Shown here in pieces: positions 38,145 through 64,000 of a DNA stretch of 64,000 nt (the first letter of the stretch is position 1; each line of letters opens with the position of its first letter). The stretch comes from a virus. The translations under genes and the position numbers were made by a program. The notes under the pieces were generated by a model. It did not search any database, had not been told where the DNA came from, and worked only from the letters and a program-made list of their open reading frames with translations. Location: the IMG/VR virus record IMGVR_UViG_3300008954_002687, positions 37,444-101,443 of that record; one strand, written 5' to 3'.

Positions 38145-38160
38145 AATTAGGAGTTTATAA

Positions 38161-48427: not shown

Positions 48428-48958
48428 ATGAAAATTACCAAATCGCAGCTTCGAAGCGTAATCAGAGAAGAAATAGAAAACACCGTCGATGAGGGTTTTG
48501 TGGACTCTATCAAGGGCGCCCTCGGTCTTGGCGGCAAGAAAGCAGCCCCAGCAGCCGATCCAATGGCAAATGTCCCAGAAGATGAGCGCGAAGACTATGA
48601 AGAATTTCGTAGTGGAGGCGCCGCCGGTCAATTCAAGTGGGAAGATGCCCGAGGACAGAACTTCGACGATACGAGTTCATATGAGGCTTACCAGGACTTC
48701 TTAAAATGGAGAACCAAGCATGTAGCTGACTCCGAACAACATCGACAGGCTCAATGGGATATTGAGCAAGCCAGGAAGAAGCGCGGCTCTGGAAGATCGT
48801 CGTCATCGTCGTCGTCGTATCGACGTGATAAATCCCCTGCCCATCGCGCATCCAGCGCTGTTGGTTCATCTAACCTTGCTTACGGCGAATCCATAGAGAA
48901 GATTAAGGACATTATTAGAGAAGTGCTACAAGAGATTCAAGGAGATAAAAAACAGTGA
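48428..48958 (+). CDS. Leader-A protein with Ser/Arg tract (putative internal head protein, 176 aa)
   Basis: ATG 48428 after AAGGAGTCAACAGC. The N-terminus MKITKSQLRSVIREEIENTV has the leader with I12-R-E14. It then has a Gly/Ala/Lys stretch, a Trp-containing charged helix (DFLKWRTKHVADSEQH), a low-complexity tract (SGRSSSSSSSYRRDKS, about residues 121-137) and a C-terminal helix IEKIKDIIREVLQEI that itself resembles the leader. No enzyme motif. The basic Ser/Arg tract could bind DNA inside the head. It overlaps the next GTG start by four bases. Confidence 0.6.
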   Translation: MKITKSQLRSVIREEIENTVDEGFVDSIKGALGLGGKKAAPAADPMANVPEDEREDYEEFRSGGAAGQFKWEDARGQNFDDTSSYEAYQDFLKWRTKHVADSEQHRQAQWDIEQARKKRGSGRSSSSSSSYRRDKSPAHRASSAVGSSNLAYGESIEKIKDIIREVLQEIQGDKKQ

Positions 48959-49980
48959 AACTTTTAATGGAAAACTGGCGTAAATTTGTTAATGAACAAG
49001 AAGAAGCCGCACAACAAGGATTTGCCCAAATAACTCCCGATACTAATATTGGAGCCGTCAAGGCTGATGAACTCTGGAGGCAGCTTGTGTCCGGACAGGA
49101 GAGTCCGCTCTATAATGCGATGAAAAATGCCACTGGCTGGGCAAGCGGCGTCTTGGGCACCCCAGAACAAGTTAAACAAAGGTTTGGGCAGATTGGACAA
49201 GAAGCCTTCATAGCGAGAGTTCAACAAGTTCAAAAACTGATCTCTACAGCAAAAACAGCTAAATTTAATATGCCTGCTCTGGAGGGCGGAGACGCCGATG
49301 CAGTAGTAGATGCACTAAGCGATCAAGATGGCGCCTTGGGAGTTGATCTAAGTTCGAAATTTGCGAACCAAATCGAAAGCTTTAAAGAGTGGTGGGAGGC
49401 ACTACCCGAGCCGATTAAACAGATGTACGAAGCAGGGAAGATCCCATCTGTAGAACAAGTACAGCAAGCAACCCAACAGACCCCCCAACAAAACGTCAGT
49501 GAAGACAAGTTTCCACGATTTGGAAAAGGTCCAATGCCCGGCGCCCCCGCTGTTGGAGAAAAAGAACAAATCAATCTTAAAAATATTAAGGGCGCCGCAT
49601 TGGCGTTCTTAACCAAAGGGATGCTCGACGGCGCGCCGGGTGACGCTGTAGCCGTTGAAAAAGACGCCGGCGCCACAAACTCAAAAATGATTCCAACGCA
49701 AAGTAATATTTTGGCAGCTAAGTCACTATTATTTGCATACAACAATCCAGCAAAACAACTCAAAGATATGGGCGGAGCCTTTGTCACTAGTGATGGAAAG
49801 ATTCTCGACGGTCACCATCGTTGGTCAGGCGCCCTTATCGGTACCGGTGGTGCACTTCAGCATACCGGCGTTCATATTGTTAAGGCGCCAGCCGATGCAG
49901 TCATCCCTCTTTTGGTTACGGTAGGGAACGCACTTGGTCGCCAGCAAAAGGGTCCCAATCCCGAAGACGAAAACCAGTAA
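48955..49980 (+). CDS. Leader-B protein with ParB/sulfiredoxin-like C-terminal domain (341 aa)
   Basis: GTG 48955 overlaps the previous stop (GTGA). The leader MKLLMENWRKFVNEQEE places Trp8 and Glu14 like the leader of the gene at 51141. The middle (about 30-200) is helical and Gln-rich. The C-terminal part contains GGAFVTSDGKILDGHHRWSG (residues about 263-282) followed by HTGVHIVKAPAD: the DGHHRW core is typical of the ParB/Srx-like fold used by ParB nucleases, sulfiredoxin and some serine kinases. T4 packages the enzyme Alt in its head, and this protein could be an analogous ejected enzyme. Activity and substrate are unknown. Confidence 0.65.
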   Translation: MKLLMENWRKFVNEQEEAAQQGFAQITPDTNIGAVKADELWRQLVSGQESPLYNAMKNATGWASGVLGTPEQVKQRFGQIGQEAFIARVQQVQKLISTAKTAKFNMPALEGGDADAVVDALSDQDGALGVDLSSKFANQIESFKEWWEALPEPIKQMYEAGKIPSVEQVQQATQQTPQQNVSEDKFPRFGKGPMPGAPAVGEKEQINLKNIKGAALAFLTKGMLDGAPGDAVAVEKDAGATNSKMIPTQSNILAAKSLLFAYNNPAKQLKDMGGAFVTSDGKILDGHHRWSGALIGTGGALQHTGVHIVKAPADAVIPLLVTVGNALGRQQKGPNPEDENQ

Positions 49981-49995
49981 AATAAGGAATAAACA

Positions 49996-51144
49996 ATGTC
50001 TGATAACGAAAATAAAGATGACAAAAACGAATTTGATTTTCTGCCTCCCGCAGAGCCACCACCCTCCTTTAATCAGGAGAAAGACCACTATCACGAAGAA
50101 GTCGCAGCAGAGGATTTCGGCATGGTTGAGGACTTCGGTCTCCAGATGGAATATTCTGATGAAGATCTCCTCCCAGAAAACACTGCCCCTTCTTCGATTA
50201 ATGTGGGCTTTGTTGGCGTTGGCGGCGGAGGCAACAAAATGGCGAACGCCTTCATTGAACTTGGATTCAACAAAACACTGATGGTAAACTCCACAGGGAA
50301 AGACATTCCGAAGAACGTCGAAGAAGATCACGTCGTTCTTATCCCCGATAGCGACGGCATCGGAAAGAACGTCGTTTACGGCAAAGAGATTCTTTCCCAA
50401 AATGGCGCCATCGTTGAAGATGCACTTCGTATTAAGCTTGGAAAAGTCGATTGGCTTTTCGTTATGGCTGGTGGAGGCGGCGGAACCGGCAGTTCGGTAA
50501 CCGCGCTGCAGCCAGTCTTCGAAAGATATATGCAATCAGTTCAGGCTTCTGGAAAAGTGGTCTATATTGTTTCTTGGCCAACCGCGCAAGAGGCACTGAA
50601 CCCGACTATCGCTCGCAACGCGCTTACGCTCGTGAATGACGTTGCCCGCCATCCGCACATCGTTCTCGACAACGAACGTGCCACACGATTACTCCGCGGC
50701 AGAATCGGCATGCTTGGCATGTATCCTGTCGCTAACACAACATTTGCTAAGTCACTTGCTCAAGTTTTAAAACTCTCCACCGAGGATTCACCGATCCAAT
50801 CTTTCGATTCTAAAGATTTGGAAACTTGCTTGAGCAATAATGGCAGAGCCTTTATGGGCTCAACAATGATAAAAGATCCAAATACAGCAAAGCTTGGATC
50901 GGTGATCCTTCATAACTGTATGAATCGTTCTGCGTGTCCGCCCCCCAAGGGGAAGGCAGGCGCCGGTTCGTTAGTGTTGGTGGTCTCGGAAGAGATGGTG
51001 GCTGACCCAAAGGTCAGTAAAAACATTGAGTCTGCAATCGCTTATGTCGGCGGTCGGTGCGAGACACTTTTCTCTGGCGTTTACGTGCGCAAGAATGTGC
51101 CCGGATTGATTGCGATACTAAGTATGAATGGATTAGCAACATGA
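49996..51144 (+). CDS. FtsZ/tubulin-superfamily GTPase
   Basis: 382 residues, ribosome site AAGGAAT. An acidic N-terminal extension (about 65 residues) precedes the GTPase. VGFVGVGGGGNKMANAF (about 71-87) matches the FtsZ first loop. AGGGGGTGSS (about 157-166) is the tubulin signature G-box. SFDSKDLETCLSNNGRAFMG (about 269-288) aligns with the FtsZ T7 loop region, keeping two acidic residues needed to activate GTP hydrolysis in the neighbouring subunit. Phage tubulins such as PhuZ position replicating phage DNA. A role in organising the cell or disturbing host FtsZ is possible. The assignment to the superfamily is strong; the role is open. It lacks a head-targeting leader. Confidence 0.87.
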   Translation: MSDNENKDDKNEFDFLPPAEPPPSFNQEKDHYHEEVAAEDFGMVEDFGLQMEYSDEDLLPENTAPSSINVGFVGVGGGGNKMANAFIELGFNKTLMVNSTGKDIPKNVEEDHVVLIPDSDGIGKNVVYGKEILSQNGAIVEDALRIKLGKVDWLFVMAGGGGGTGSSVTALQPVFERYMQSVQASGKVVYIVSWPTAQEALNPTIARNALTLVNDVARHPHIVLDNERATRLLRGRIGMLGMYPVANTTFAKSLAQVLKLSTEDSPIQSFDSKDLETCLSNNGRAFMGSTMIKDPNTAKLGSVILHNCMNRSACPPPKGKAGAGSLVLVVSEEMVADPKVSKNIESAIAYVGGRCETLFSGVYVRKNVPGLIAILSMNGLAT

Positions 51145-51605
51145 ACAAACTATTTGAAAATTGGCGAAAGTACACAAACGAAGCAGCATACGAACCCGGT
51201 CGTGCTGTTGCCGATATTGATACTGGCGAAGATTACATGAGCCCCGAAGAAATTAGGGACGAAGAGGTACAAGACTTGGCTGACAAGTTTAATGTCGAAG
51301 CCTTCGTTGAGATTGCTAGCGATGGAAAGCCTTCTATTATAGTAAAGCACCAAGACGGCAAATTGTCAATGTATAACGACACAGAAGAGATGTACAAAGA
51401 GTTAGCAAGCCGACAAGAAATGAATGAAGCAGCTGAACCACATTCAGCCTCTCACGTCGTTAAAAAGATGATGAAAACAGGACTAAGTGCTAAGGAAGCG
51501 CTAAAGAGTTTAACTCATGATCTTTCTGATGAAGAAGCTGAGCGTTGGCTTGAGCGCCACAAGGATGAAATGGATAGTGCTGAACAAGATTTAGCAAGCC
51601 GATAA
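51141..51605 (+). CDS. Leader-B protein (putative internal head protein, 154 aa)
   Basis: ATG 51141 overlaps the FtsZ-like stop (ATGA); I reject the upstream in-frame start at 51057. The N-terminus MNKLFENWRKYTNEAAYEPG matches the leader of the gene at 48955 over ENWRK and has Glu14, although the residue at -3 is Thr rather than Leu/Ile. The acidic body has a short beta region (FVEIASDGKPSIIVKHQDGK) and a helical C-terminal half with repeated EE/DE pairs (LSDEEAERWLERHKDEMD). No enzyme motif or membrane segment. Classified with the leader set by its N-terminus. Confidence 0.58.
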   Translation: MNKLFENWRKYTNEAAYEPGRAVADIDTGEDYMSPEEIRDEEVQDLADKFNVEAFVEIASDGKPSIIVKHQDGKLSMYNDTEEMYKELASRQEMNEAAEPHSASHVVKKMMKTGLSAKEALKSLTHDLSDEEAERWLERHKDEMDSAEQDLASR

Positions 51606-51627
51606 TAAATATAAAAGGAATAATATA

Positions 51628-51951
51628 ATGGCATTTAGAAAAAACAAGAAGTTCATTGATCCTCGTTACTTTATGGACGAGAAGACTGATATTATTAAAG
51701 AAGAGATTGAGGAGGCGCGCCTTCCTGCATGGGAACGCCCGGTCCACACACCGCCCGAAGAAGAAAGATTTACTGGCGGCTCCATTGATATTGAACCACT
51801 CTCCGATGAAGAACAAGAAGCTTCTTACGATGCCTATTACGAATTGCATAGTTTCTTGCTGGATTCGGACCTCCCCGGCAACAAACCATCAGATAAGCTA
51901 CGTCACGCCCTTCGTTGGATTGCAAAATTTGAAAAGCAAGGTATGGGTTAA
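51628..51951 (+). CDS. Leader-C protein (putative internal head protein, 107 aa)
   Basis: ATG 51628 after AAAAGGAATAATATA. The leader FIDPRYFMDEKTDIIKEEIE (residues 9-28) is nearly identical to that of the gene at 43312, with the same I-K-E triplet. The rest differs completely: a Pro/Glu-rich linker and a helical C-terminus (LRHALRWIAKFEKQGMG). Two proteins sharing only their first ~30 residues indicates that the leader is a mobile module with its own function. No enzyme motif. It is followed after 4 bases by a leader-A gene. Confidence 0.6.
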   Translation: MAFRKNKKFIDPRYFMDEKTDIIKEEIEEARLPAWERPVHTPPEEERFTGGSIDIEPLSDEEQEASYDAYYELHSFLLDSDLPGNKPSDKLRHALRWIAKFEKQGMG

Positions 51952-51955
51952 CAAC

Positions 51956-52813
51956 ATGAAAATCACAAAATCACAACTCAAAGAAATTATACGAGAGAAT
52001 ATCGACTCGCTTCCGATTGAGAATTTAATCGGCGGAATCAGCAGTCTCGTCGACGGCATGGATCCGGAGTTGGTGGGTGTTGTTTTCACCACTGTCTTCA
52101 AGGAGATGGAGGGAGGCAGTCCGCCACCCGAAACAAGTGAAGAGCCGGAAGCGACCCAACAAATTGGCTTTGATAGGGAACCTGAAGAAGTATCCAATAG
52201 AGCACCAGAGCGCATCGGCTTCGAAGAGAGCTTGATAAAAGTAATCAAAGAAGAAATGAGTACCGATTCCGCCCTTTTAAGCGCGATCAATAAATTAGCA
52301 GACAAGATTGATAACTTAGATGTTAGTGTTGATTACTTAGCCGCTTCTGTTACCGGCGAAGATCCTCTCTCTCTTGGGTATGGACAGGCAGCGTTTGGCA
52401 GAGCCGCCCGCAAGAAGAAGATTCAACCGCCGGCGGAATTAGCCGAGATCATCGAACAAGAGATCGCAGAGGCGCTAGGTACGGGCAGAATGGCTCCAGT
52501 AGCTCGCACTCTCTCTCGCGCAGGGATCGCCCAGCGCTCAGAACCAACAAGAACAGAGTTGATGAAATTAATAGCTGCCTTAGACACCGGAGACCCAGAG
52601 GAATTACAACAACTAGCCGATATGGTGGCACAACTCATGGACGCAGCTAGCGAAAATATTGAACAAGATTACGGCTTAGAAGAGGTGTCTTCCGAGAAGC
52701 AACGCCGCTGGGCTTGCGCACAAAAAGACAAGCCCGCCGATGAAAGAGCAGACAGCTTATCCGCAGCAGAGGCAGAAGAGATGTGTACATCCAAAGTGGA
52801 AGAAGACGCATGA
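51956..52813 (+). CDS. Leader-A protein, helical, with Cys-containing C-terminus (285 aa)
   Basis: I choose ATG 51956, which gives MKITKSQLKEIIRENIDSLP at the N-terminus; the longer in-frame reading from 51656 overlaps the previous gene and lacks sense. Several internal I-x-E triplets occur (VIKEEMS at about residue 96, IIEQEI at about 162), so it could be cut into pieces by the prohead protease. The body is helical and acidic. The C-terminus (KQRRWACAQKDKPADE, then AEAEEMCTSKVEED) has two cysteines about 30 residues apart and may form a small metal-binding or disulphide unit. Function unknown. Confidence 0.6.
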   Translation: MKITKSQLKEIIRENIDSLPIENLIGGISSLVDGMDPELVGVVFTTVFKEMEGGSPPPETSEEPEATQQIGFDREPEEVSNRAPERIGFEESLIKVIKEEMSTDSALLSAINKLADKIDNLDVSVDYLAASVTGEDPLSLGYGQAAFGRAARKKKIQPPAELAEIIEQEIAEALGTGRMAPVARTLSRAGIAQRSEPTRTELMKLIAALDTGDPEELQQLADMVAQLMDAASENIEQDYGLEEVSSEKQRRWACAQKDKPADERADSLSAAEAEEMCTSKVEEDA

Positions 52814-52856
52814 CCGGAAGAGGAAGGCTTAGTTTAAGCTAATAATTGGAGACAAG

Positions 52857-53054
52857 ATGATGGAATATGTACAAGGCAAACTAGACAGATTAGTCGAGAA
52901 AATGATTTCTCGGAAGTTTCTTGTATGGCTAACCGCAACAGGACTCCTCGCATTTTCAGACTTACAGTCGGGCGACTGGGTAATTATTTCAGCAATTTAC
53001 ATTGGGGGTCAAACTGTCATCGATGGTATCGCTAAACTTAAGGGTGTCGCGTGA
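52857..53054 (+). CDS. Holin-like small membrane protein
   Basis: 65 residues. ATG 52857 (a second ATG follows at once), preceded by TTGGAGACAAG. Two hydrophobic segments are visible: FLVWLTATGLLAFSDL (about residues 20-35) and WVIISAIYIGGQTVIDG (about 41-57), with a charged N-terminus. The size, topology and place before a spanin-like gene suit a phage holin. A general small membrane protein is the alternative. Its stop overlaps the next GTG (GTGA). Confidence 0.55.
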   Translation: MMEYVQGKLDRLVEKMISRKFLVWLTATGLLAFSDLQSGDWVIISAIYIGGQTVIDGIAKLKGVA

Positions 53055-53437
53055 ATTGGTCGGCAGTAATTAAATTTGGTTTAAAGTACTGGCGAGAACT
53101 GCTGGTCGTTGGCTCCCTCCTTGCAGTTGTAATTAAGACACAGCTTGATTATCGTGCGCTTAATAAAGCGTATGAGATTTCGCAACAAAGCCTCCAAGAA
53201 CAAGTAGAGGGTTTACAAAAGATTCACGAGGAAGAACTTAAGAAGCGAGACGCGGCATTGAGGAGCTACCGTACAACTCTTGAAGAAATCGAAAGAGGCT
53301 ATTTAGAATCTCAAGAAGAAGTCGAAAGATTAAAAAAACAGAAAAGAGATCGTTTAGAGAAAAGCTATTCATCGAACCCGGAGGATTTAGCCAATGAGAT
53401 TGTTAATACTTATGGCTTTGAGCGCACTGCTGAGTAA
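53051..53437 (+). CDS. Inner-membrane spanin-like (Rz-type) protein
   Basis: 128 residues from GTG 53051. An N-terminal transmembrane helix (ELLVVGSLLAVVIKTQL, about residues 16-32) is followed by a long charged coiled coil (residues about 35-105, rich in Glu, Gln, Lys, Arg). This is the layout of lambda Rz-type i-spanins, which span the periplasm and fuse the membranes at lysis. The last 44 bases overlap the next gene in another frame, as in many Rz/Rz1 pairs. The context with the holin-like gene supports a lysis cassette. Confidence 0.62.
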   Translation: MNWSAVIKFGLKYWRELLVVGSLLAVVIKTQLDYRALNKAYEISQQSLQEQVEGLQKIHEEELKKRDAALRSYRTTLEEIERGYLESQEEVERLKKQKRDRLEKSYSSNPEDLANEIVNTYGFERTAE

Positions 53438-53825
53438 TCCGGCACTCGGCGCCGACAACGGAAGGTTTACCTTTTTGGGGAAAAATCAATGCGCGCCATA
53501 CGAGGGTGTCCTGTTCGACCCAAAAGCAACCGCTCACATCCTTGCGGATCGGTTTGCCTTAAATAACGATTGCGAGATAAGGATGAAATATCAACTGGAT
53601 ATACAAGCAGCAGACTATGATCTACAATTACAAAACTTACAGATTCGCCACGAAGCCCTTTTGCAAGAATATGTTTTACGAATTGATTCGCTAGAACGCG
53701 AGAGTGGTGCGCTAGCAAATGCTCTTAAAAAACAAAGTAAAAAAAATCCTGCACTTTGGGTGACAATTGGGGTAGCATCTGGAATAGCACTAAGCTACGG
53801 TGCATATAAGGTGTTTAATGAGTGA
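53394..53825 (+). CDS. Secreted/membrane protein in the lysis-like cassette
   Basis: 143 residues, ATG 53394 with GGAGG (53380-53384). It begins with a signal peptide (MRLLILMALSALLSNPALGA) and has a C-terminal hydrophobic helix (ALWVTIGVASGIALSYGAYK, about residues 119-138) after a coiled-coil region. No cysteine follows the signal peptide, so it is not a lipoprotein o-spanin of the classic kind. The two cysteines are in the mature part. It could be an unusual spanin partner or an inner-membrane-anchored periplasmic protein. The overlap with the Rz-like gene favours a linked role. Confidence 0.55.
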   Translation: MRLLILMALSALLSNPALGADNGRFTFLGKNQCAPYEGVLFDPKATAHILADRFALNNDCEIRMKYQLDIQAADYDLQLQNLQIRHEALLQEYVLRIDSLERESGALANALKKQSKKNPALWVTIGVASGIALSYGAYKVFNE

Positions 53826-54204
53826 GAAAGATTTAAATGAGGTAGCTGCCATTGAGCGCGCAATCGCTGCGAAATATGGTGAAGAAGCCATTAAAAATCC
53901 TCGGTCCGATTGGGACGAGACCAAAGAAAAAGAATATCTTCAGCAAATGAAAGAACTCTATCGCCACGCTTCTAAGAATAAAGAGTGGGAAGAAAAAGTC
54001 GACGTTAATGGGATAAAGGTTACAAAAAAACTACTTAATAGAGAATCTTTAAAAACTTGTCCTGTCTGCGGAAATTTTCCAAAGAGTGCAATGGATGATG
54101 TCTGTCTTGTAAAATTTGATTGTTGCAATAATTGTTACATTGAATATGTAGAAGATAGAGAAGAAAGATGGAAAAAAGGCTGGAGACCAAATGAGAATCA
54201 ATAA
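53818..54204 (+). CDS. Zinc-ribbon-like small protein, unknown
   Basis: ATG 53818 overlaps the previous gene by 8 bases and is preferred to the upstream GTG 53800. The product is 128 residues with a helical, charged N-terminal half and a cysteine cluster in the C-terminal half: CPVCGNFP, then a single Cys, then CCNNC before a basic Trp-rich end (RWKKGWRPNENQ). The cysteine spacing suits one or two zinc sites. No family recognised. A nucleic-acid or protein-binding helper is possible. It overlaps the next leader gene by 14 bases. Confidence 0.55.
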   Translation: MSEKDLNEVAAIERAIAAKYGEEAIKNPRSDWDETKEKEYLQQMKELYRHASKNKEWEEKVDVNGIKVTKKLLNRESLKTCPVCGNFPKSAMDDVCLVKFDCCNNCYIEYVEDREERWKKGWRPNENQ

Positions 54205-54496
54205 ATCACAACTTAAACAAATTATTAGAGAAGCAATTGCTGAGTCCGACATCGGAACTGCCGTCTCGGACCTCGGCGGCTCTGCAAAGACGACCGTCAA
54301 GAACCAAGCAGTGCAGAAGTTTATCGAGCAGGTGGGTGTGCGCCTATCGAAGGTTAGCCGCAGCGCCCAAGTAGAATTTTTAAAAGGCTTGATGCAGACG
54401 CTTGACATCGATCCATCGCTACTAACACAAGTGAAGACCGCTGTTCAGAAAGACCAAAGAGCTGCCGCCGCAGCACCACAAGGAGAACCCCAATAA
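54191..54496 (+). CDS. Leader-A protein (putative internal head protein, 101 aa)
   Basis: Begins MRINKSQLKQIIREAIAESD, a variant of the leader with I12-R-E14 followed by Ala, the residue type often found after the cut in T4. The body is mainly helical (KFIEQVGVRLSKVSRSAQVE, then LDIDPSLLTQVKTAVQ) with an Ala/Pro/Gln tail. No cysteine, membrane segment or enzyme motif. Overlaps both neighbours (14 bases upstream, TAATG downstream). Assigned to the leader group by its N-terminus. Confidence 0.6.
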   Translation: MRINKSQLKQIIREAIAESDIGTAVSDLGGSAKTTVKNQAVQKFIEQVGVRLSKVSRSAQVEFLKGLMQTLDIDPSLLTQVKTAVQKDQRAAAAAPQGEPQ

Positions 54497-55047: not shown

Positions 55048-55050
55048 ACA

Positions 55051-55308
55051 ATGAAATTCTCCAAATTATACCTTAAGCAGATCATCAAAGAAGAGATCTC
55101 AAGTGTTTTGCGCGAGGGTCATTATCATGATATGGGCGGTGAAGACGAGACATATGATGTCCTCGATCCCCACGGAATCGAAGATATGTCCGATGCTGAG
55201 CTTGTCGACATGATGCATGTAGATGGAATGGAAGAAATGATTGTTCTGGACGGAGAAGGGGATCTTGCAAATCGCGAAGAAGTTATAGCAGCATTGAAAG
55301 ATGTATGA
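55051..55308 (+). CDS. Leader-A protein, small acidic (85 aa)
   Basis: Begins MKFSKLYLKQIIKEEISSVL, a diverged form of the leader that still has I12-K-E14. The rest is strongly acidic and Met/Asp-rich (DMSDAELVDMMHVDGMEEMI, then DLANREEVIAALKDV) and looks like a small helical domain. The stop overlaps the terminase ATG (ATGA), so it is translated just before the terminase. It could be an internal protein or, by position, a small terminase-associated factor. The leader favours the first. Confidence 0.58.
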   Translation: MKFSKLYLKQIIKEEISSVLREGHYHDMGGEDETYDVLDPHGIEDMSDAELVDMMHVDGMEEMIVLDGEGDLANREEVIAALKDV

Positions 55309-56888
55309 CGTTCCAATTAGACAAAAAACAACAAGTTAAAGAAATACTTAAATGCGGGAAGGAACCCGCTTATTTTTTAAAGACTTACGCAAGAATTTCC
55401 CATCCCATGTATGGGCTTATTTTATTTGATACTTATGATTTCCAAGACGACCTTCTTAAAGATTTTAATGATTATCGCTTTAATGTTATTTTAAAGGCGC
55501 GCCAGTTAGGGATTTCAACAATCACTGCTGGCTATATTGTTTGGTTGATGTTGTTTCACCGTGACAAATCAATTCTTGTTATGGCGACCAAATTTGCAAC
55601 AGCGGGCAACTTAGTAAAGAAGGTCAAGGGCGTTATGCGCAACTTGCCAGATTGGCTTAAGATCGCCACAATTGACGTGGATAACCGGACTTCCTTTGAG
55701 CTTTCTAATGGGTCATCTATCAAAGCAGCGTCTACCTCTGGTGATGCCGGTCGTTCTGAGGCACTGTCTTTGCTGGTTCTTGATGAGGCTGCACACATTG
55801 AAGGACTTGAAGAACTGTGGACCGGTCTGTATCCTACACTATCAACTGGTGGGCGATGCATAGCACTTTCAACGCCCAACGGGGTCGGTAACTGGTTCCA
55901 TAAAACATGTATGGATGCTGAAGGCGGCAGCAATAACTTTAACCTTACAACACTCCAGTGGGACGTTCACCCCGAGCGTGATGAAGCTTGGTATAAGAAA
56001 GAAACCAAGAACATGTCAAAACGCCAGATTGCACAAGAGCTTGAGTGCAATTTCAATACTTCTGGCGAGACTGTCATAGACCCTGACTGTATGAAGTGGC
56101 TATTAGAAAATGTTAAAGAGCCAAAGCACAGAACCGGCTTTGATCGCAATTTCTGGATTTGGGAAGAATTCGATCCCACATGTAACTATCTTGCGGTGGC
56201 AGATGTTTCGCGAGGCGATGGCGCTGACTATTCAACATTACACATGATTAAATTAGAGACGCTGGAAATCGTGGGCGAGTATCAAGGGAAGCCAACGCCC
56301 GATATGTATGCAAACTTCTTGAATCAAGTAGGGAGAGAATTTGGAAATGCGATGCTTGTAGTAGAGAACAATAACATCGGTTACACGGTTCTCGATAAAC
56401 TCGTTGAACACGGTTATCCAAATTTGTACTACTCTATTAAGTCTACACATGAGTATATAGAGCAACATCAAGCAGAAGTTAGAAACTCTGCCGTTGCCGG
56501 GTTCACAACCTCAATGAAGACGCGCCCGCTCATCGTTGCGAAATTAGAGGAGTTTATCAGAAACAAACTAATTAAGATATATTCATCTCGCACAATTAAT
56601 GAGATGAAAACTTTTATTTGGAAGAACGGTAAACCACAGGCAATGAAAGGATATCATGATGATCTCATCATGGCGCTAGCGATTGCTTGCTGGGTGAGGG
56701 ACACAGCATTGCAATCAAACGCACGAGACCTAAACTATCAAAAAGCTTTTGTGAATGCCATTGTTACTTCGAAGACTTCTATGAACACTCAAATTAACGG
56801 ACAACAAGGCTACAAAAAAGATAATATTTTTGATAAAATGGGTGAAGCAAAAGAATTATACGATCAGTATAAATGGATTATTAAGTGA
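55305..56888 (+). CDS. Terminase large subunit, gp17-like
   Basis: 527 residues. The ATPase half has a Walker-A-like KARQLGISTITAGY (about residues 62-75), FATAGNLVKKVKG, and Walker B LLVLDEAAHIE (about 155-165), followed by ALSTPNGVGNWF as motif III. The nuclease half starts near 290 with an acidic DVSRGDGADYS, has LVVENNNIGYTVLD, and ends with GYHDDLIMALAIACW (about 449-463). This is the motor that pumps DNA into the prohead and cuts concatemers. The portal gene follows after 8 bases. No intein or insertion seen. Confidence 0.95.
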   Translation: MTFQLDKKQQVKEILKCGKEPAYFLKTYARISHPMYGLILFDTYDFQDDLLKDFNDYRFNVILKARQLGISTITAGYIVWLMLFHRDKSILVMATKFATAGNLVKKVKGVMRNLPDWLKIATIDVDNRTSFELSNGSSIKAASTSGDAGRSEALSLLVLDEAAHIEGLEELWTGLYPTLSTGGRCIALSTPNGVGNWFHKTCMDAEGGSNNFNLTTLQWDVHPERDEAWYKKETKNMSKRQIAQELECNFNTSGETVIDPDCMKWLLENVKEPKHRTGFDRNFWIWEEFDPTCNYLAVADVSRGDGADYSTLHMIKLETLEIVGEYQGKPTPDMYANFLNQVGREFGNAMLVVENNNIGYTVLDKLVEHGYPNLYYSIKSTHEYIEQHQAEVRNSAVAGFTTSMKTRPLIVAKLEEFIRNKLIKIYSSRTINEMKTFIWKNGKPQAMKGYHDDLIMALAIACWVRDTALQSNARDLNYQKAFVNAIVTSKTSMNTQINGQQGYKKDNIFDKMGEAKELYDQYKWIIK

Positions 56889-56896
56889 GGCGATAA

Positions 56897-58924
56897 ATGG
56901 CAAACAACAATAGAAATAAATCAAGAGGCAAAAACCCAGCGAACGAAGACTCAAATCTCTTTAAAGCGCTGACGAGATTGTTCTCGGGACCAATCGTTAA
57001 TTATCGGTCTCAATCCGGTCGCAAGATCCGGCGGCAGCATATGGACAAATATGCTGCACGGTTCAAGTCTGCATCCGGTCAACAGTTTAAGAAAGCCTTA
57101 TACAATCCTCTTGATACAATTGCCACCAATGCAATTGCAAATCAGCGCCGCTCCGAGAGATACATCGATTTTGATCAGATGGAGTATATGCCAGAAATCG
57201 CGTCCTCCATGGATATCTATGCCGATGAGATGACCACCTACTCAGACTTGCGACCGATGCTTAGTATCAAGTGTCCGAATGAAGAAATCAAAGCAGTCTT
57301 AGCAATTCTTTTTGACAACATTCTTAGCCTTCAATACAATCTTTTTGGCTGGGCACGGACAATGTGTAAGTATGGAGACTTCTTTCTCTATCTCGACATT
57401 GATGAGAAGTACGGCATCAAATCAGTTATTGCACTCCCTTCCCCAGAAATCGAACGCTTGGAAGGAGAAGACTCCACGAACCCCAACTATGTGCAATATC
57501 AGTGGAACTCTGCCGGAATGACGTTTGAAAATTGGCAGGTTTGCCATTTCCGTATTCTCGGAAACGACAAGTACATCCCGTACGGCACCTCTATCCTTGA
57601 GCCTGCCCGCCGCATCTGGCGCCAACTGACGCTTATGGAAGATGCGATGATGGCGTATCGTGTTGTTCGGTCTTCCGAGCGCCGAGTGTTCAAGATCGAC
57701 GTAGGCTCGATCCCCCCACAAGATGTCGAGCAGTATATGCAAAAGATTGTAACACAACTCAAGCGCCATTCGGTAGTAGATCCTAGCACAGGTAGAGTGG
57801 ACCTTCGTTATAATCCGATGAGCATCGAAGAAGATTACTTTATTCCAGTGCGCGCTGGCTCTGTCACTGACATTCAAAGTTTAGCCGGCGCACAGAATAT
57901 TACACAGATTGACGATATTAAGTATCTGCGCGATAAACTGTTCTCTGCGTTAAAGATTCCCCAAGCATATCTTGCCATGGGCGAAGGAGCAGCAGAAGAT
58001 AAGACCACACTCGCACAGAAAGACATTCGATTTGCACGCACAGTCCAGAGGCTTCAGCGCGTTATTATCGCTGAACTAGAAAAGATATCTATTATTCATC
58101 TTTATACTTTAGGATTCCGCGGCGACGACCTGTTAAGCTTCAAATTGGCACTCAACAATCCGTCCAAGATTGCAGAGCTTCAAGAAGTGGAACACTGGAA
58201 AGCTAAGTTTGATATTGCCGGCGCAGCCACCGAGGGTTACTTCTCTCGTCGTTGGGTTGCTGATAACATCTTTGGCTTGTCTCACGAAGAATTCGCGCGA
58301 AACCAGAAAGAAATGTATTACGACCGTAAGCACGATGCAGCACTCCAAGCTGTTGCCGAAGGCGGCGAAGCCGCAGCAGGCGGCGGAGGACTCGGCGGAG
58401 GACTCGGCGGAGGACTTGGTGGTGACCTCGGTGGCGGTGACCTCGGGGGAGATGATCTTGGAGGCGGAGACGATCTGGGCGGTGATCTGGGCGGTCCGGA
58501 AGAGATGCCGGCAGGTGATGCTGGTGGAGGCGCCGAGGGCGGAGGAGAAGAGTCTCCACTTCTCGCAGTTCCCCCGGGATCGCGAAATGAGCCCCGTCTT
58601 ACTCCGGGCGCAAAGGGGAAAGTATATCACCCCACCACTATCGATCAGCGAAAGGCTGGAGCCCGAAAACGCTCAAATGCCGCTAAATATTCTAGAGAAA
58701 AAGCCAGCGCCACACTGCGAAACGTTTTCCCCGGCGCGGAGATCAACAAGATCCCCAGCGCAGCAGCAGGGATTTACGAGCAAGAACAGTCTATTTATAA
58801 CTTGAGAGAACAAACCGAAGAAGATAAGTTGTTTAACATCAATGATTCTCTTAGGGTATTGATCCAAGATTTAGAAAATAAAAAATTATTAACGGAGCAG
58901 AAGAAAGATGAAGACAAAACATAA
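56897..58924 (+). CDS. Portal protein, gp20-like
   Basis: 675 residues, longer than T4 gp20 (about 524). Recognisable blocks: a basic N-terminus, RRSERYIDFDQMEYMPEIAS (about 79-98), FGWARTMCKYGDFFLYLDID and IAELEKISIIHLYTLGFRGD. It forms the dodecameric ring for DNA entry at one head vertex and binds the terminase. Residues about 490-540 are a Gly/Asp-rich insertion (repeats of LGGG, then DLGGD) encoded in part by 12-base tandem repeats. A further helical tail contains several I/L-x-E triplets, which could be trimmed by the prohead protease. Confidence 0.93.
   Translation: MANNNRNKSRGKNPANEDSNLFKALTRLFSGPIVNYRSQSGRKIRRQHMDKYAARFKSASGQQFKKALYNPLDTIATNAIANQRRSERYIDFDQMEYMPEIASSMDIYADEMTTYSDLRPMLSIKCPNEEIKAVLAILFDNILSLQYNLFGWARTMCKYGDFFLYLDIDEKYGIKSVIALPSPEIERLEGEDSTNPNYVQYQWNSAGMTFENWQVCHFRILGNDKYIPYGTSILEPARRIWRQLTLMEDAMMAYRVVRSSERRVFKIDVGSIPPQDVEQYMQKIVTQLKRHSVVDPSTGRVDLRYNPMSIEEDYFIPVRAGSVTDIQSLAGAQNITQIDDIKYLRDKLFSALKIPQAYLAMGEGAAEDKTTLAQKDIRFARTVQRLQRVIIAELEKISIIHLYTLGFRGDDLLSFKLALNNPSKIAELQEVEHWKAKFDIAGAATEGYFSRRWVADNIFGLSHEEFARNQKEMYYDRKHDAALQAVAEGGEAAAGGGGLGGGLGGGLGGDLGGGDLGGDDLGGGDDLGGDLGGPEEMPAGDAGGGAEGGGEESPLLAVPPGSRNEPRLTPGAKGKVYHPTTIDQRKAGARKRSNAAKYSREKASATLRNVFPGAEINKIPSAAAGIYEQEQSIYNLREQTEEDKLFNINDSLRVLIQDLENKKLLTEQKKDEDKT
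58382..58417 (+). repeat. Three tandem 12-base repeats in the portal gene
   Basis: GGCGGAGGACTC occurs at 58382, 58394 and 58406 (last copy ends in T). It is followed to about 58500 by degenerate GGTGACCTCG-type units. In frame they encode a Gly/Leu then Gly/Asp tract. Slippage-prone, so length may vary among relatives. Confidence 0.8.
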
Positions 58925-59741
58925 TAAAAAAAGAAACACCGCTTTTGTTTATGAAGCCTTAATCAAAGAAGCTACATTGTCGATAATCAAAGGAGACGCC
59001 GAGCGAAAGCAGAGCGTTGTTAATGTGATTAAGAAACATTTTGGAGCCAAGACCATTCTGAGAAAAGATTTAGAGTGTTACCGCTCATTATATGAGAACC
59101 AAAACCTAACCAAAGAAACATCCGAGAAGATCCTGCGCGAAGCCAAAATGCAAAAGATGCTTGTAAACCCTGCAGGACTCTTCGCTGCTCAGAGTGCAAT
59201 GATTCATGACGTCAATAAAGAAATTGACACCAAGGTCTTTAACAATTTTGTTCCCAATTACAAAACTTTAGCTACCATCGATCAGATTTTTAATATCAAA
59301 ACTGATCCGAAGAGTGTAATCATGCTCGAAAACGAAATCGTCACCAACATGACACAGGCAGCACCAGACAACACAGAGCCCGAACCAGTTGATAAATTAC
59401 TCCTTAATACGTTTGTCACAAAGTTTAATGACAAGTACGGAGAGAGTCTCCGCGAAGAGCAACAGCAGCTTTTAAGCACCTATATCTCGTCTTTTGTTGA
59501 TAATTCTCTTGCGCTTAAAATGTATCTTAACGAAGAGATTGCGCGGCTTAAGCAAGAATTAGAGGGCGCCTCCGCGACCGAGTGCTTTAAAGATGACGAA
59601 GTAATGGTACAGAAGGCTAATCAAGTAGTCGAAAAGCTGAACAAGTTTGCGCAAGAGCCTCCCTCTGATGCAGTGTTGTTCACCGTGCTTAAAGCACAAG
59701 AATTAGTAGGGGAGATCTATAACGATGGCGCTGACGATTAA
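58908..59741 (+). CDS. Head-region helical protein between portal and protease, unknown (277 aa)
   Basis: Starts 17 bases inside the portal gene's end. The product is nearly all helical and highly charged: a basic start (MKTKHNKKRNTAFVYEALIK), a long acidic/basic coiled region and a C-terminal helix VFTVLKAQELVGEIYNDGAD. Its place between portal and prohead protease matches where T4 has the prohead core genes 67 and 68, and its helical nature would suit a scaffold or core protein. No direct similarity is evident, so this is inferred from position and composition. Confidence 0.52.
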   Translation: MKTKHNKKRNTAFVYEALIKEATLSIIKGDAERKQSVVNVIKKHFGAKTILRKDLECYRSLYENQNLTKETSEKILREAKMQKMLVNPAGLFAAQSAMIHDVNKEIDTKVFNNFVPNYKTLATIDQIFNIKTDPKSVIMLENEIVTNMTQAAPDNTEPEPVDKLLLNTFVTKFNDKYGESLREEQQQLLSTYISSFVDNSLALKMYLNEEIARLKQELEGASATECFKDDEVMVQKANQVVEKLNKFAQEPPSDAVLFTVLKAQELVGEIYNDGADD

Positions 59742-60264
59742 GATCGGAAGAGGACACCAGTCGGCAGTCGTCCGATTGGAAATGGATTTGCGAAAGAGTC
59801 TCAACGGAGATCTCATGATTTTTGATCATGGAGATATCGACATTGTGTTGTCTCCCTCTAAAAATAAAATTGTAGCATTTCCCAAAGAGACGATGAATGA
59901 TATGGTATATGGTGCACAAAATCGTCTATTTGCCCACTTGCGCAAAAAGGGACTAGTGATCCCAGAGTCAATTCAAGCCGGAGCCTTTTACGGCTCGTTT
60001 GAGGCGACAATGGAAGAGCCGTTTAAAGAGAGCCTGAATGCGGCTAAGTTCACACTTATCAATATCTCGAACTTTATTAACGAAGAACGTCCGTACTTTG
60101 AAGCCACAGAAGCGATTGTCTCGATGACGGACGACGAACTGACGCACCCAGACAACACAGACTCCACCGAGTTAGGCGAGGTACCTCAATCAACTGAGAA
60201 GGGCTCGATTCGACCCGGCTTTACCCGAGATCCCTATTCCTTAAACTATCTATATACAATCTAG
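59725..60264 (+). CDS. Head-region protein of unknown function (179 aa)
   Basis: Overlaps the preceding gene by 17 bases. The N-terminal half is a beta-rich fold (ALTIKIGRGHQSAVVRLEMD, DLMIFDHGDIDIVL), followed by helices and an acidic linker (ELTHPDNTDSTELGEVPQST) and a Tyr-rich end. No enzyme motif or membrane segment. Part of the portal-to-protease gene run, so probably involved in head assembly. The function cannot be read from the sequence. Confidence 0.5.
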   Translation: MALTIKIGRGHQSAVVRLEMDLRKSLNGDLMIFDHGDIDIVLSPSKNKIVAFPKETMNDMVYGAQNRLFAHLRKKGLVIPESIQAGAFYGSFEATMEEPFKESLNAAKFTLINISNFINEERPYFEATEAIVSMTDDELTHPDNTDSTELGEVPQSTEKGSIRPGFTRDPYSLNYLYTI

Positions 60265-60273
60265 GAGAGAGCA

Positions 60274-61203
60274 ATGTCAGAAATGCATTTAATTATGAAT
60301 GGGTGGCGAGGTTACCTCCTCCAAGAGTATAAGAACCAAACGCTTTTTGAAGACACAGCATATATTGCGGGCGTACTTGGGATCGTACTCCCTCTTACTG
60401 AGTCGGGCAATATTGCCCCTCTAAGCGAAGAACTTAAAAAACAAATTCTGCATGAGCAAATGTTGTTTGAATCCTTTTGGGATGACGCGGTCCAAACGGT
60501 TAAGGACGCCGCCGGAAAAGTTGCCGGCAAGTTTATCGACGCTGCCGAGGGGATTAAAAAGTTTGGCAAAGAAGGTTGGGCTATCGTAAAACAACTGTAT
60601 CGAGTTGCAACAAACCCAGATCTAATTCCCAATTTCACGGGCGCCATATGGAAAGTAAATTTAAGACACAAGTGGCGCACCGGTCTAAAGCCCATATTGG
60701 AAGATTTAATACAAAGATTGCCGACGTGGGATATGCCCAACTTTGCTTCTATCGCACAAAGAGCCTTAGACACTATAAATAAAGTAATCGAGTCGGTTAA
60801 ATCCCTGTCAGGATGGAAGAAGGCAATCGCCACTGCTGGATTATCCATAGGGTTTACGTGGATATGGGAAAAGGTTAAAGATTTTATAGAAGGCTATAGA
60901 ACGTGGAGTAAAAAGCTTGAATCGGATGAGAGTGAAGGAATGGCAGAACAGTTTAAGACTTGGCTCAAAGCCGCAGTCAACAGCACCTTTTTAAATGTTT
61001 TAAAGACTCAGTTTGTTGGAATGGTAGAAAAACTCATTTCAGTATCTACGGGCGTCAAGGGATGGTGGGATGCAGCAGTCTCTGCAGTCGGCGGCGTCCA
61101 GTTGGTTATCAAAGCCCTCGGCACTTCTTTATCGAGATTCTCGCGCTACACGGGCGGTGGAAAAAAGATAAACCTTAGCAAGTACACTGCTGCTACAACT
61201 TAA
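60274..61203 (+). CDS. Amphipathic helical protein with leader-B-like start (putative internal/ejection protein, 309 aa)
   Basis: ATG 60274 after TAGGAGAGAGCA. The first residues (MSEMHLIMNGWRGYLLQEYK) resemble leader B (Trp-Arg then L-x-E: L-L-Q-E at 15-18). More L/I-x-E triplets follow (TLFED, ILHEQMLFE). From residue 70 on the protein is a chain of amphipathic and hydrophobic helices with many Trp, Ala and Gly (DAAGKVAGKFIDAAEGIKKF, AIATAGLSIGFTWIWEKVKD). This texture is found in membrane-inserting ejection proteins. It lies directly before the prohead protease gene region. Function inferred from leader and composition. Confidence 0.58.
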   Translation: MSEMHLIMNGWRGYLLQEYKNQTLFEDTAYIAGVLGIVLPLTESGNIAPLSEELKKQILHEQMLFESFWDDAVQTVKDAAGKVAGKFIDAAEGIKKFGKEGWAIVKQLYRVATNPDLIPNFTGAIWKVNLRHKWRTGLKPILEDLIQRLPTWDMPNFASIAQRALDTINKVIESVKSLSGWKKAIATAGLSIGFTWIWEKVKDFIEGYRTWSKKLESDESEGMAEQFKTWLKAAVNSTFLNVLKTQFVGMVEKLISVSTGVKGWWDAAVSAVGGVQLVIKALGTSLSRFSRYTGGGKKINLSKYTAATT

Positions 61204-61218
61204 ACATTAGGAAACAAA

Positions 61219-61542
61219 ATGGAATTATTGACATTTGTCTTGTGTGCCTACGGGCTCACTCAAATTTTAGTATATAGCGATCTACCCGCTTTACAAAAAT
61301 TACGCCCCCCAAAGGACGCCGCCGGCGGCTATGGCAAGGTATTTCACTGCCCTATGTGCATGGGATTTCACGTCGGATGGCTTTTGATGCTGCTTTCCCC
61401 ATACACAGAACTATTTAGTTTTGACGTTTCCGTATTCAATTTCTTCCTTCTTGGATGGTTATCTTCGGGAACATCCTATATATTAAACATGGTCTTTGGA
61501 GACAACGGAGTTAAACATGAACACAAATACTTGGACAAATAA
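61219..61542 (+). CDS. Small membrane protein with CPMC motif (DUF1360-like)
   Basis: 107 residues, ribosome site AGGAAAC. Three hydrophobic segments are visible: the N-terminus (LLTFVLCAYGLTQILVY), the region after FHCPMCMGFHVGWLLMLL (about residues 42-60), and FNFFLLGWLSSGTSYILNMV (about 74-93). The C-P-x-C-x-G-F/W pattern is that of the DUF1360-type small membrane proteins found in phages and bacteria, of unknown role. It has no leader. Why it sits between the helical protein and the protease is not clear. Confidence 0.6.
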   Translation: MELLTFVLCAYGLTQILVYSDLPALQKLRPPKDAAGGYGKVFHCPMCMGFHVGWLLMLLSPYTELFSFDVSVFNFFLLGWLSSGTSYILNMVFGDNGVKHEHKYLDK

Positions 61543-61587
61543 ATGGATGCTGCAGCCCGTTAGGCGTTGCTGCAAAGGATCCTAACT

Positions 61588-62193
61588 GTGGGTCAGAAGT
61601 TACTTAGAGAATATTATGAACTCTGCGAAGGCGGCATTTGTCAAGACTTGCTGACTGAAGAAGAGAAGGCATATGTCGCTGATGGCGGCATGTACCTTAC
61701 TGGAATTATTCAGAAAGCAGACACAGTTAACGGCAACGGTCGAGTTTATCCTCACAAGGTCCTCATGCGCGAGATAAAGAACTATGAAAAATTAGTTAGC
61801 GAGCGCCGAGCTTTGGGAGAGTTGGACCACCCTGACGACTCTGTGATCAACCTTAAGAACGCGTCCCACATGATGACCAAAGTTTGGTGGGACGGCAAAA
61901 ATGTGATGGGCAAAGCCAAAGTGCTCGATACTCCGTCCGGTCAGGTCTTAAATTCCCTAGTGAAAGCCGGCGTAAGCATCGGCATTTCGTCTCGGGGAAT
62001 GGGTTCTGTATCGGAATCCGCCGGCAACACAGTTGTTGAAGACGATTTCCAGCTTATCTGCTTTGATTTTGTATCTGAACCTTCCACGCCCGGCGCCTTT
62101 ATGATGAAAGAAGCTAAAGGATACACCAACAGAGTGTTCACCAAAGCGGACCGCATCAACAGATTATTAAACGAGGTACTTGAAGATGAGTGA
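61588..62193 (+). CDS. Prohead core protease, gp21-type
   Basis: I take GTG 61588, which has AAAGGA at a 7-base distance, over TTG 61567; the product is 201 residues, close to T4 gp21. The diagnostic blocks are NGNGRVYPHKVL, RALGELDHPDDSVINLKNAS (His81 as catalytic His), and GVSIGISSRGMGSV (Ser134 or Ser135 as nucleophile), followed by FDFVSEPSTPGAFM. The enzyme cleaves scaffold, capsid and internal proteins after [L/I]-x-E during head maturation. Its presence next to many proteins with I-x-E leaders underlies the main hypothesis of this annotation. Overlaps the next gene by 8 bases. Confidence 0.92.
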   Translation: MGQKLLREYYELCEGGICQDLLTEEEKAYVADGGMYLTGIIQKADTVNGNGRVYPHKVLMREIKNYEKLVSERRALGELDHPDDSVINLKNASHMMTKVWWDGKNVMGKAKVLDTPSGQVLNSLVKAGVSIGISSRGMGSVSESAGNTVVEDDFQLICFDFVSEPSTPGAFMMKEAKGYTNRVFTKADRINRLLNEVLEDE

Positions 62194-64000
62194 CTGGAGT
62201 AGTTTTAAAGACGCTAAAAAGCGCAGCGACGCATGGAAAGGCTTTTTAGCCGAGAGTGTTGAGCCTAAGATCAAAGAAGATGTTCCTCTTGATGAGTTTT
62301 TCGGAAAACTTAAGTGGGGAAAGACCGGAGGAAAACACGGACTTAGCTATGACAAGCATCAATATACAGGCGATCTGGTATGCAAGCCGGGCGACAAATG
62401 TGCCGGCGGCGATGGAGAGGAAGAGGGCGCAGGCAACGAGCCTGAAACTTATAACGCCGACGACGTAGCTGCTCTTTATAAGGCAATTGACGACATCCGT
62501 CGAATTTTAAACGTAGAAGTTAAGCGCGATGTATTATATAACGAACTTGAAGACCTTATTACAAACCCTCAAGGAAATAATTATACAATCGAGGAACAAT
62601 CAATTCACAAGGCATCTGTAATTCTTAGCCGGATGCCCAAGTTGGGTCCCAACGGCGAGTTGGACGTAAATAAATACCCAAATCTTGCTAAAGTATTCAA
62701 CGCTGCGCTCACTACACAAAAGACCAAAGACCATCTCTATAAGATTCTTGCACGTGCCGGCTTCTTCGGCAAAGAAGGGAACGACCTTCCCAACTGGTTT
62801 AAAAAATCAAAGCCCAAGCAGCAAGAACCCCAAAAGCCCCAAGAACCACAAGCGCCCCAAGAGCCACAACAGCCACAACCGCAGGGTGGCACACCCGGTC
62901 AAGAGGAAGAGCCAGAAGATGGGACTCAGGCGCCGACCCCCGTCGACGTGGAAGAATATCCGGACGCAGTGGTCGGCGACTGTAGCAAAATCAAATTCAA
63001 GCCAAAGCCCAGCAATCCCGGCTACACACTAGCATACTTTTTATCGGCGATAAAGAATGAGTATCAAATAGCACCGGAGAAGTATAAAGAACTGCGTGAC
63101 TATATGGTCAAGCAAAGCGTCAGTGCCGGCATCATTAAACAAATGGATGCAGACAGCACTATCCGAGAATACATCGCCGGCGTAACTACCCCTGAAAAAT
63201 CTCCACGCAAAGGGCGCAAAGTTAAGGGAAGTGACTCAAAGCCGGCTAAGTCGCATGCAGTTGACTTTTCTGGCATCTTTAAGATCTTTGCCGACCAAGA
63301 AGTTGCACAAGCCATTTATGATTGTTGCAAGACTCAATTGCGCGAAGGCGGTTGGGACATCGGTACCGGTGTTGAAGAGCCAGCAATCGACCCAGAGGGC
63401 ACCACCGATACGGATGGAGAAGACGAAAGTGTTATAGATAAAGTTCAAGATTTAGCAAACACGCCCGCTGTTAAAGCGGTCGAAGGTTTGGCTAGCGTAT
63501 TGTCACTGGTGCCCGGCGCCAATATACCGGCGTCTATCGCAGAATCTCTCATTAATATAGCACAAGGGGATTTGAAATCGGCGGCATTGGCACTGTTTTC
63601 CCTCATTCCCTTTGGAAAGATCGCCGCGAAAGCTGGCAAGTTTGGACCATTGGTCCTTAAGTTAATACCTCTAGTTAAAGCTATGGACAAAGTCCGCGGC
63701 GCCCAAGGTGCCAAGGATGCTATCATAAATGCTCTAGAGGCAGCAGGCATCGAGGCATCGGTCGAAGATGTACAAGAGGGTGTTAACAAGGCGCTCGAAC
63801 TGTATGACAAGGTTGCCGACAAGCCCGGAATGGAAGAGTTGAAAAAACTAGGCGATAAGTACATTGAACCCCTCAGAGATCTCAGCGCAATGCTCGGTAC
63901 CGCGCCGGGCGAAGCTCCCCCTGAAGGGGCGGAAGATATAGCCCCCGCCGGCGCAGAAGGCGAACCCGGCGAGGAAGGCGCAGAAGACGCAGAAGGCGAA
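62186..64000 (+). CDS. Leader-bearing multi-domain protein, 3' partial (at least 605 aa)
   Basis: ATG 62186 overlaps the protease end; the frame is open to the window edge. The start contains SDAWKGFLAESVEPKIKEDV, a leader-B-like Trp-Lys-Gly-Phe followed by L21-A-E23. Next come a short Cys segment (CKPGDKC), a helical domain, a Pro/Gln repeat linker (QEPQKPQEPQAPQEPQ, about residues 211-232), a second helical domain, a linker, and a hydrophobic Gly/Ala-rich block (VLSLVPGANIPASIAESLIN, then LALFSLIPFGKIAAKAGK, about 435-490) that resembles the helices often placed before toxin domains in polymorphic toxins. It ends in an acidic Gly/Glu-rich region. Scaffold or ejected internal protein are the two main possibilities. 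Confidence 0.62.
   Translation, partial: MSDWSSFKDAKKRSDAWKGFLAESVEPKIKEDVPLDEFFGKLKWGKTGGKHGLSYDKHQYTGDLVCKPGDKCAGGDGEEEGAGNEPETYNADDVAALYKAIDDIRRILNVEVKRDVLYNELEDLITNPQGNNYTIEEQSIHKASVILSRMPKLGPNGELDVNKYPNLAKVFNAALTTQKTKDHLYKILARAGFFGKEGNDLPNWFKKSKPKQQEPQKPQEPQAPQEPQQPQPQGGTPGQEEEPEDGTQAPTPVDVEEYPDAVVGDCSKIKFKPKPSNPGYTLAYFLSAIKNEYQIAPEKYKELRDYMVKQSVSAGIIKQMDADSTIREYIAGVTTPEKSPRKGRKVKGSDSKPAKSHAVDFSGIFKIFADQEVAQAIYDCCKTQLREGGWDIGTGVEEPAIDPEGTTDTDGEDESVIDKVQDLANTPAVKAVEGLASVLSLVPGANIPASIAESLINIAQGDLKSAALALFSLIPFGKIAAKAGKFGPLVLKLIPLVKAMDKVRGAQGAKDAIINALEAAGIEASVEDVQEGVNKALELYDKVADKPGMEELKKLGDKYIEPLRDLSAMLGTAPGEAPPEGAEDIAPAGAEGEPGEEGAEDAEGE

Follow-up and report, generated by a model that had tools for sequence, protein, structure and literature searches.

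Why should several proteins of one virus, unlike each other over most of their length, begin with the same short peptide? We examined this question in the final 64 kb of the 101,443-base virus record IMGVR_UViG_3300008954_002687, from an uncultivated T4-like phage (the window, 64,000 nucleotides; positions are those of the window unless the record is named, and loci are cited by L numbers), in which the genes at 48955, 51141, 60274 and 62186 encode a Trp-containing N-terminal block that we call leader B. In the sequence features tested, leader B is a well-supported variant of the capsid targeting sequence (CTS) of phage T4, and it very probably serves as a CTS of the T4 internal-protein type, which would be removed after [L/I/V]-x-E by a gp21-like protease. 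The four leaders and their cargo proteins are the following.

48955..48996, + strand: leader B of gene 48955, MKLLMENWRKFVNE; cleavage predicted after E14; retained in some homologues and exchanged in others
48955..49980, + strand: cargo of 341 residues with an invariant ILDGHHRW core, weakly ParB/Srx-like
51141..51182, + strand: leader B of gene 51141, MNKLFENWRKYTNE; MKKLFENWR kept in L010, L011 and L012
51141..51605, + strand: cargo of 154 residues without a confident family
60274..60327, + strand: leader B of gene 60274, one-residue-longer variant, MSEMHLIMNGWRGYLLQE; relatives begin MSEMKLIMENWR
60274..61203, + strand: cargo of 309 residues, between the portal and gp21 genes
62186..62254, + strand: leader B of gene 62186, long form, MSDWSSFKDAKKRSDAWKGFLAE; relatives begin MSxWSSFKxxQLIMESWR
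62186..64000, + strand: cargo directly after gp21, open at the record end (832 residues in L005)

The initial annotation had placed leader B on at least two and probably four proteins, and its reading of the N-termini is confirmed for all four. Gene 48955 (GTG start, Shine-Dalgarno-like site, N-terminus MKLLMENWRKFVNEQ) and gene 51141 (ATG start, MNKLFENWRKYTNEA) share Trp8 and Glu14; the corresponding residues are W11 and E18 in gene 60274 (MSEMHLIMNGWRGYLLQEY), in which the W-to-E gap is one residue longer than in the other three, and W17 and E23 in gene 62186 (MSDWSSFKDAKKRSDAWKGFLAES). Two residues ahead of the Glu, 48955 has V and 51141 has T, which confines the clean L-x-E noted earlier to 60274 and 62186. 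The long form of 62186 is also present on the 48955 homologues L089, L090 and L121. When all six frames of the complete record were scanned with a relaxed motif and a start codon was required at most 24 codons upstream, exactly eight leader-B matches were obtained, namely these four genes and those at record positions 4639, 5669, 6289 and 10171. Record 4639, 5669 and 6289 are adjacent genes with N-termini MKLLFENWRKFVKEE, MKLLLENWRKFLNEK and MKLLLENWRKFINEE, respectively, and 4639 has V at the third position before the predicted cut, like 48955.

Next, we considered whether the motif exceeds chance. It occurs within the first 32 residues of 7/106 closed proteins (8/107 when the open-ended 62186 is included) and has no match in 28,362 internal residues of the record, and shuffled N-termini averaged 0.07 matches and reached at most 2 in 2000 trials. 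Similarly, in loci fetched via the gp21 protein alone (1125 proteins; 22,500 residues at positions 1-20 and approximately 258,000 past residue 20), 44/45 matches to W..[FY][LIVMT].E fall at residues 1-20. The leader is thus located within the first 10-20 residues and anchored at the start codon, as is characteristic of a CTS. Conservation of Trp and Glu in related genomes, which the initial annotation had suggested as a check, is borne out in loci fetched with the mature part as query and the leader excluded, with leader B retained in 5/5 kinase homologues and in 48 of the 52 distinct N-termini from 68 HAD loci. Among the remaining four HAD N-termini, L481 is cut by a contig end, L491 has Q for E, and the called starts of L500 and L511 lie after any leader. 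A tblastn search of the 20-residue leader against phages, which has low power for so short a query, returned two microvirus capsid matches (E 4-7) that we take as noise. Promoter sites resembling TATAAATA had no clear placement before leader genes, one of them (L002 4287) lying 352 bases before 4639.

We then examined the proteins that follow the leader. The 304 leader-B proteins, comprising the listed matches of a leader DNA pattern (found in at least 120 stretches of viral contigs) and those of all other loci, formed 144 clusters by mature part, of which 28 were removed because the start or the core was weak or the sequence short. The 116 clusters kept share the leader only, the same peptide preceding unrelated mature proteins in the loci examined. 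Two alignments of cluster representatives (58 + 58) display a common MKLLxENWRx[Y/F]LxE, with W8 and E14 invariant by selection, and no block past the leader. Pfam assigned 21 and 5 families to the two sets, several of them overlapping, and most representatives have no family; the families include AAA_33/zeta-type, protein kinase, DUF192, PGDYG, NUDIX, NT5C, GNAT, C-5 methylase, HNH, HAD, M23, LysM and LigT. The product of record 4639 resembles a kinase (PF00069, E 1.2e-7, barely over the cut-off) and carries a glycine loop, a lysine, KDVHSGN and DLG, which we take to be kinase motifs. In the structural model of 48955, residues 21-100 form a block with a predicted local distance difference test score (pLDDT) of 93-98, and the leader, predicted with less certainty (69, 61), is helical and lies apart from the folded domain. 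The kinase model (pLDDT 70 overall) displays the same pattern, with 46 and 42 over the leader; its matches in the PDB have E of about 1e-5 but TM-scores of about 0.2, and we attribute them to the N-lobe. Searches against solved structures gave no match to the kinase and, in the case of the 48955 family, none below E 0.07, and Foldseek on the 48955 model gave weak ParB-N matches only (best E 2.9).

The spacing within the leader is that of the T4 CTS. Ten residues of T4 internal protein III (IPIII) are reported to be enough for uptake, with residues 4 and 7 controlling targeting and 8 and 10 processing; gp21 cleaves after L/I-x-E, Asp at position 10 blocks processing and not targeting, and CTSs are only suggested there as a possible general packing route for various proteins in T4-like phages (PMC9026906). 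T4 IPIII and IPII both start MKTYQEFIAEA, and X04567 marks IPIII residues -10 to -1 as preceding the mature protein. IPIII Y4, F7, I8 and E10 align with W8, F/Y11, L/I/V12 and E14 of leader B, in agreement with the likeness to the T4 leader noted earlier, and a general spacing scan of the T4 proteome recovers ipII and ipIII. A second leader of the window, leader A, has aliphatic residues in the same columns: among 68 N-termini from the gp21-fetched loci, L8 occurs in 65, I11 in 56, I12 in 64 and E14 in 65, indicating that the two leaders have a common spacing, Phi8-x-x-Phi11-Phi12-x-E14, and more than the Glu alone. The initial annotation had read the Glu common to both leaders as convergence on one protease; the shared cleavage-like Glu stands, and the apparent convergence may reflect shared descent of one targeting code.

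Position by position, of 209 matches to the remainder of the motif, 203 have W and 5 have F in the W position (most loci having been selected on W), so that an aromatic W or F comes first in 208/209; the single exception, a G, comes from a chance match beyond the leader itself in a protein that carries one. Among 32 cases from loci not selected on W there are 31 W and 1 F, and F/Y is present at W+3, the second targeting position, in 73/129 N-termini chosen on W alone. Among the leaders of the kinase/HAD loci (n = 118), E is found at W+6 in 103, only at W+7 in 13 and at neither in 2. The third position before the cut is L in 53, I in 31 and V in 14 of those with E at W+6 (98/103 L/I/V), and L/I occupies W+5 in 12/13 of those with E only at W+7, which mostly belong to one family; the [L/I/V]-x-E end therefore shifts as a unit. 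Gene 60274 of the window is of the W+7 kind.

A leader of this type calls for a protease in the same genome, and the window carries a T4-type head module.

55305..56888, + strand: T4-type large terminase subunit, part of the T4-type head module
56897..58924, + strand: T4-type portal (gp20); Portal_T4 PF07230, E 4.3e-79; phrog_213
61588..62193, + strand: T4 gp21-like prohead core protease (Peptidase_S77); Pfam PF03420, E 6.2e-35; also by tblastn

The protease at 61588-62193 is the likely processing enzyme for leader B. Peptidase_S77 is found in 9/20 leader-B records, including 8/8 of those of at least 139 kb, which were not picked by gp21; the 11 without it are all of 74-124 kb. In controls of at least 139 kb, picked by a tRNA pattern among the 80 matches listed, it occurs in 2/11 (8/8 versus 2/11, Fisher p-value = 0.0007), and the leader thus co-occurs with a gp21-type protease both in this record and in all the large leader-B records. 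The leader DNA pattern has 1-8 occurrences in 12/13 records of this lineage and none in the 11 controls, 6 isolates and 8 giant-phage records; record G047 has an identical 48955 gene yet no pattern match, the pattern demanding an ATG start. The protease itself begins (61588-61650) with KLLREYYELCEGGICQDLLTE, kept with small changes in 80/80 loci (L004-L083); this start resembles that of leader B, contains L-C-E and L-T-E, and may be a targeting and self-cutting part of the enzyme.

The leaders are also exchanged. Among 35 aligned homologues of 48955, sorted by eye, 8 carry leader B (the window, L088, L089, L090, L116, L121, L131 and L155), about 14 carry A-like leaders (e.g., L093 MKKLTPAQLRYLILQE and L162 MKLTESQLRKIISNE), 4 carry clear T4-type leaders (L127, L139, L148 and L150), and the rest are unclear. 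L121 with leader B and L162 with leader A are 45% identical over 231 residues; likewise, L227:7074, which has leader B, and L130:12915, with an A-like leader, show 53% identity over 74 residues, and record 5669 has leader B where its L137 homologue begins MKSFKQYITE. Among the ten loci examined for T4-type tags, such tags form whole arrays, reaching 11/30 genes in L127 (MKNIPTFEDFxNE; 0.18 expected), 8/27 in L148 and 5/13 in L137, with 1/18 in L144 and 0/9 in L138 at the low end. These swaps and arrays indicate several dialects of one spacing. The 48955 family also seems, by eye, to be circularly permuted relative to L127, L139, L148 and L150, a K/R-x-x-MP-x-hydrophobic stretch standing before the DGHHRW core in 48955 and after it in the homologues with T4-type leaders. 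The other leader types of the window are the following.

43977..44891, + strand: leader A protein, MKITKTQLKQIIKEE; same spacing, aliphatic residues
44888..45226, + strand: leader A protein, MKITKEQLRKIIAEE
48428..48958, + strand: leader A protein, MKITKSQLRSVIREE
51956..52813, + strand: leader A protein, MKITKSQLKEIIREN
54191..54496, + strand: leader A protein, MRINKSQLKQIIREA
55051..55308, + strand: leader A protein, MKFSKLYLKQIIKEE
43312..43824, + strand: protein with a third leader type, C, RRIDPRYFMDEK
51628..51951, + strand: protein with leader type C, KFIDPRYFMDEK

Leader C reads D-P-R-Y/W-F-M/L-x-E, is present on 13 distinct N-termini in the loci and also has the aromatic-x-x-E step.

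As a mechanism, we propose that leader B would form a short amphipathic helix whose aromatics W8 and F/Y11 would attach the tagged protein to the prohead core while the shell is still open. The gp21-like protease would then cut after [L/I/V]-x-E, that is, after residue 14 (W+6, or W+7 in the variant), and the mature protein, freed inside the head, would pass into the host together with the DNA. The sequences show a modular tag, which serves many unrelated proteins and can be replaced by leader A or by T4-type leaders within one protein family, as well as its spacing, its exchange and its co-occurrence with a T4-type protease; docking, cleavage and injection are inferred from them.

Compared with the CTS of T4 IPII and IPIII, leader B is likewise a short N-terminal leader common to proteins with unrelated mature parts, with the order aromatic-x-x-aromatic-[I/L]-x-E, in a genome with a T4-type gp21 protease, portal and terminase. 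In contrast to it, the core of leader B is a W within ENWR, preceded by four additional residues, and V or T is also accepted at the third position before the predicted cut. Eight leader-B proteins are found here and nine in one 203-kb record, whereas the same scan gives two in T4, plus gene 61.1. The latter (54 residues, hypothetical; L292 18966-19130, minus strand, NC_000866) starts MKTFKEFIKED with CTS spacing and is a candidate further T4 internal protein. Short modular peptides also load unrelated enzymes into the protein shells of encapsulins and microcompartments; these do not belong to phage-head proteins and are not known to be removed by a prohead protease, as leader B is predicted to be. 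Giant phages offer a further parallel, since two SPN3US paralogues are described with an identical 15-residue N-terminus, as is the removal of phiKZ and SPN3US N-terminal regions by a gp21-related protease (PMC5694885). Leader B resembles these as an N-terminal region that is predicted to be removed by a gp21-related protease, but several phiKZ/SPN3US propeptides exceed 100 residues and the motifs given for that system are A-x-E and S-x-E, whereas leader B has 14-23 residues and L/I/V-x-E. A literature search covering few subscription journals returned no description of the W-type leader, leader A or the MKSFKQYITE and MKNIPTFEDF arrays, and none of six leader strings was found in the literature searched.

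Several observations weigh against a T4-type CTS. The site preference is imperfect: the leaders as a whole end in L/I-x-E, but the L/I preferred by T4 gp21 is replaced by V in 48955 and record 4639 and by T in 51141; a Glu is lacking at W+6 and W+7 in 3/30 leaders of the gp21-fetched loci, as in the two kinase/HAD leaders and L491 above; and among gp21-fetched leaders with E only at W+7, L or V is at W+5 in just 3/7, so that the unit shift fails there. The scan of T4 also gives 2 chance-like matches beside 3 leader-like ones (1.86 expected). In HTVC008M, Syn9, immuto_2-6A and Mel-JY01 there are 0, 3, 2 and 2 N-terminal spacing matches versus 1.04, 0.89, 1.44 and 0.74 expected, with no repeated shared leader and no match leader-like by eye, and tblastn of 48955 and record 6289 against 50,697 phage records found no homologue. 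Finally, leader similarity is partly due to DNA copying, one 24-mer recurring in 37 genes of 20 cargo clusters and 30 loci, with codon identity between clusters and loci of 0.566 versus 0.435 expected.

The irregular cut sites would suit a leader that docks to the head core and that the gp21-like protease does not, or not always, remove, much as the Asp substitution in IPIII separates the two functions; the near-constant placement of E in the kinase/HAD loci and the hydrophobic residue two before it (98/103 and 12/13) argue otherwise, and we consider this unlikely. A destination elsewhere in the infected cell, such as a membrane, a tubulin-like filament or a replication compartment, appears more improbable still, even though the leader is amphipathic by composition (mean moment 0.60 versus 0.33 in shuffles) and two of the leader-B genes are separated by one that is tubulin/FtsZ-like, since such a role would not need the L-x-E end, the spacing is that of the T4 CTS, gp21 is flanked by leader genes, and the same families swap leader B for T4-type tags. 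The protein encoded by that tubulin/FtsZ-like gene (49996-51144) has no leader and matches Pfam Tubulin (E 1.4e-8), TIGR00065 ftsZ (E 9.3e-14, but far under the family cut-off) and, by tblastn, Bacillus phage G gene 138 (E 1e-4).

The recurrent 24-mer and the raised codon identity indicate that leaders are also copied as DNA, and might suggest a mere recombination or translation-start cassette whose peptide has no role. This we regard as very improbable, because 124 distinct 24-mers exist among 201 leaders and 439/1218 same-residue codons differ within contigs, which indicates that the peptide is what is kept; W, the aromatic and E survive the codon changes, and the long form MSKYSSFK..QLIMENWRRYLNE has the same core. 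Within the CTS reading, such copying may be the route by which new cargo is captured.

Around the protease, gene 62186 was considered as the gp22 scaffold and rejected, L011 and L012 showing an accessory gene in this place and a gp22-like gene further downstream; 62186 is missing from the post-gp21 position in, e.g., L011. In L012, the gp22-like (17517-18701) and gp23 genes are approximately 6.9 and 8.1 kb further downstream, the former assigned from its place and N-terminus, with no Pfam match. In T4, gp21, gp22 and gp23 are neighbours; in the relatives, gp21 is separated from gp22-like/gp23 by roughly 5 kb of additional genes whose N-termini resemble those of tail fibres (L012 12227-17448). 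A small basic gene near gp21 (L011 11032-11274; L012 11941-12180) resembles ribosomal protein S21 by eye, and ribosomal protein S21 is annotated close to the prohead protease in the Mel-JY01 record (22183-22410). Upstream of the window, L003 (record 19001-38500) contains at about 13522-16223 genes that, from their N-termini, we presume to resemble those of sugar-nucleotide and sialic-acid synthesis.

Overall, we lean slightly towards one head-entry code, N-terminal hydrophobic-x-x-hydrophobic-[I/L/V]-x-E, which would be written in a different dialect in each lineage (MKLLxENWRKYLxE and MKITKSQLKQIIKEE in this phage; MKSFKQYITE and MKNIPTFEDFVNE in others; MKTYQEFIAE in T4), and transferred cargo would adopt the local dialect with the aid of recombination in leader DNA. 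In the loci sampled, the tag is present on more than 100 unrelated clusters and on up to nine proteins per genome, compared with few tagged internal proteins in T4, and its cargo includes a protein kinase, HAD and NUDIX hydrolases, a P-loop kinase, a methylase and an M23 peptidase. Should the code hold, reading the dialect would list, from sequence alone, the virion cargo, probably injected effectors, of uncultivated T4-like phages; the head contents of phages never grown would become predictable, and many proteins without a function would gain a common place and time of action, in the particle and first into the host.

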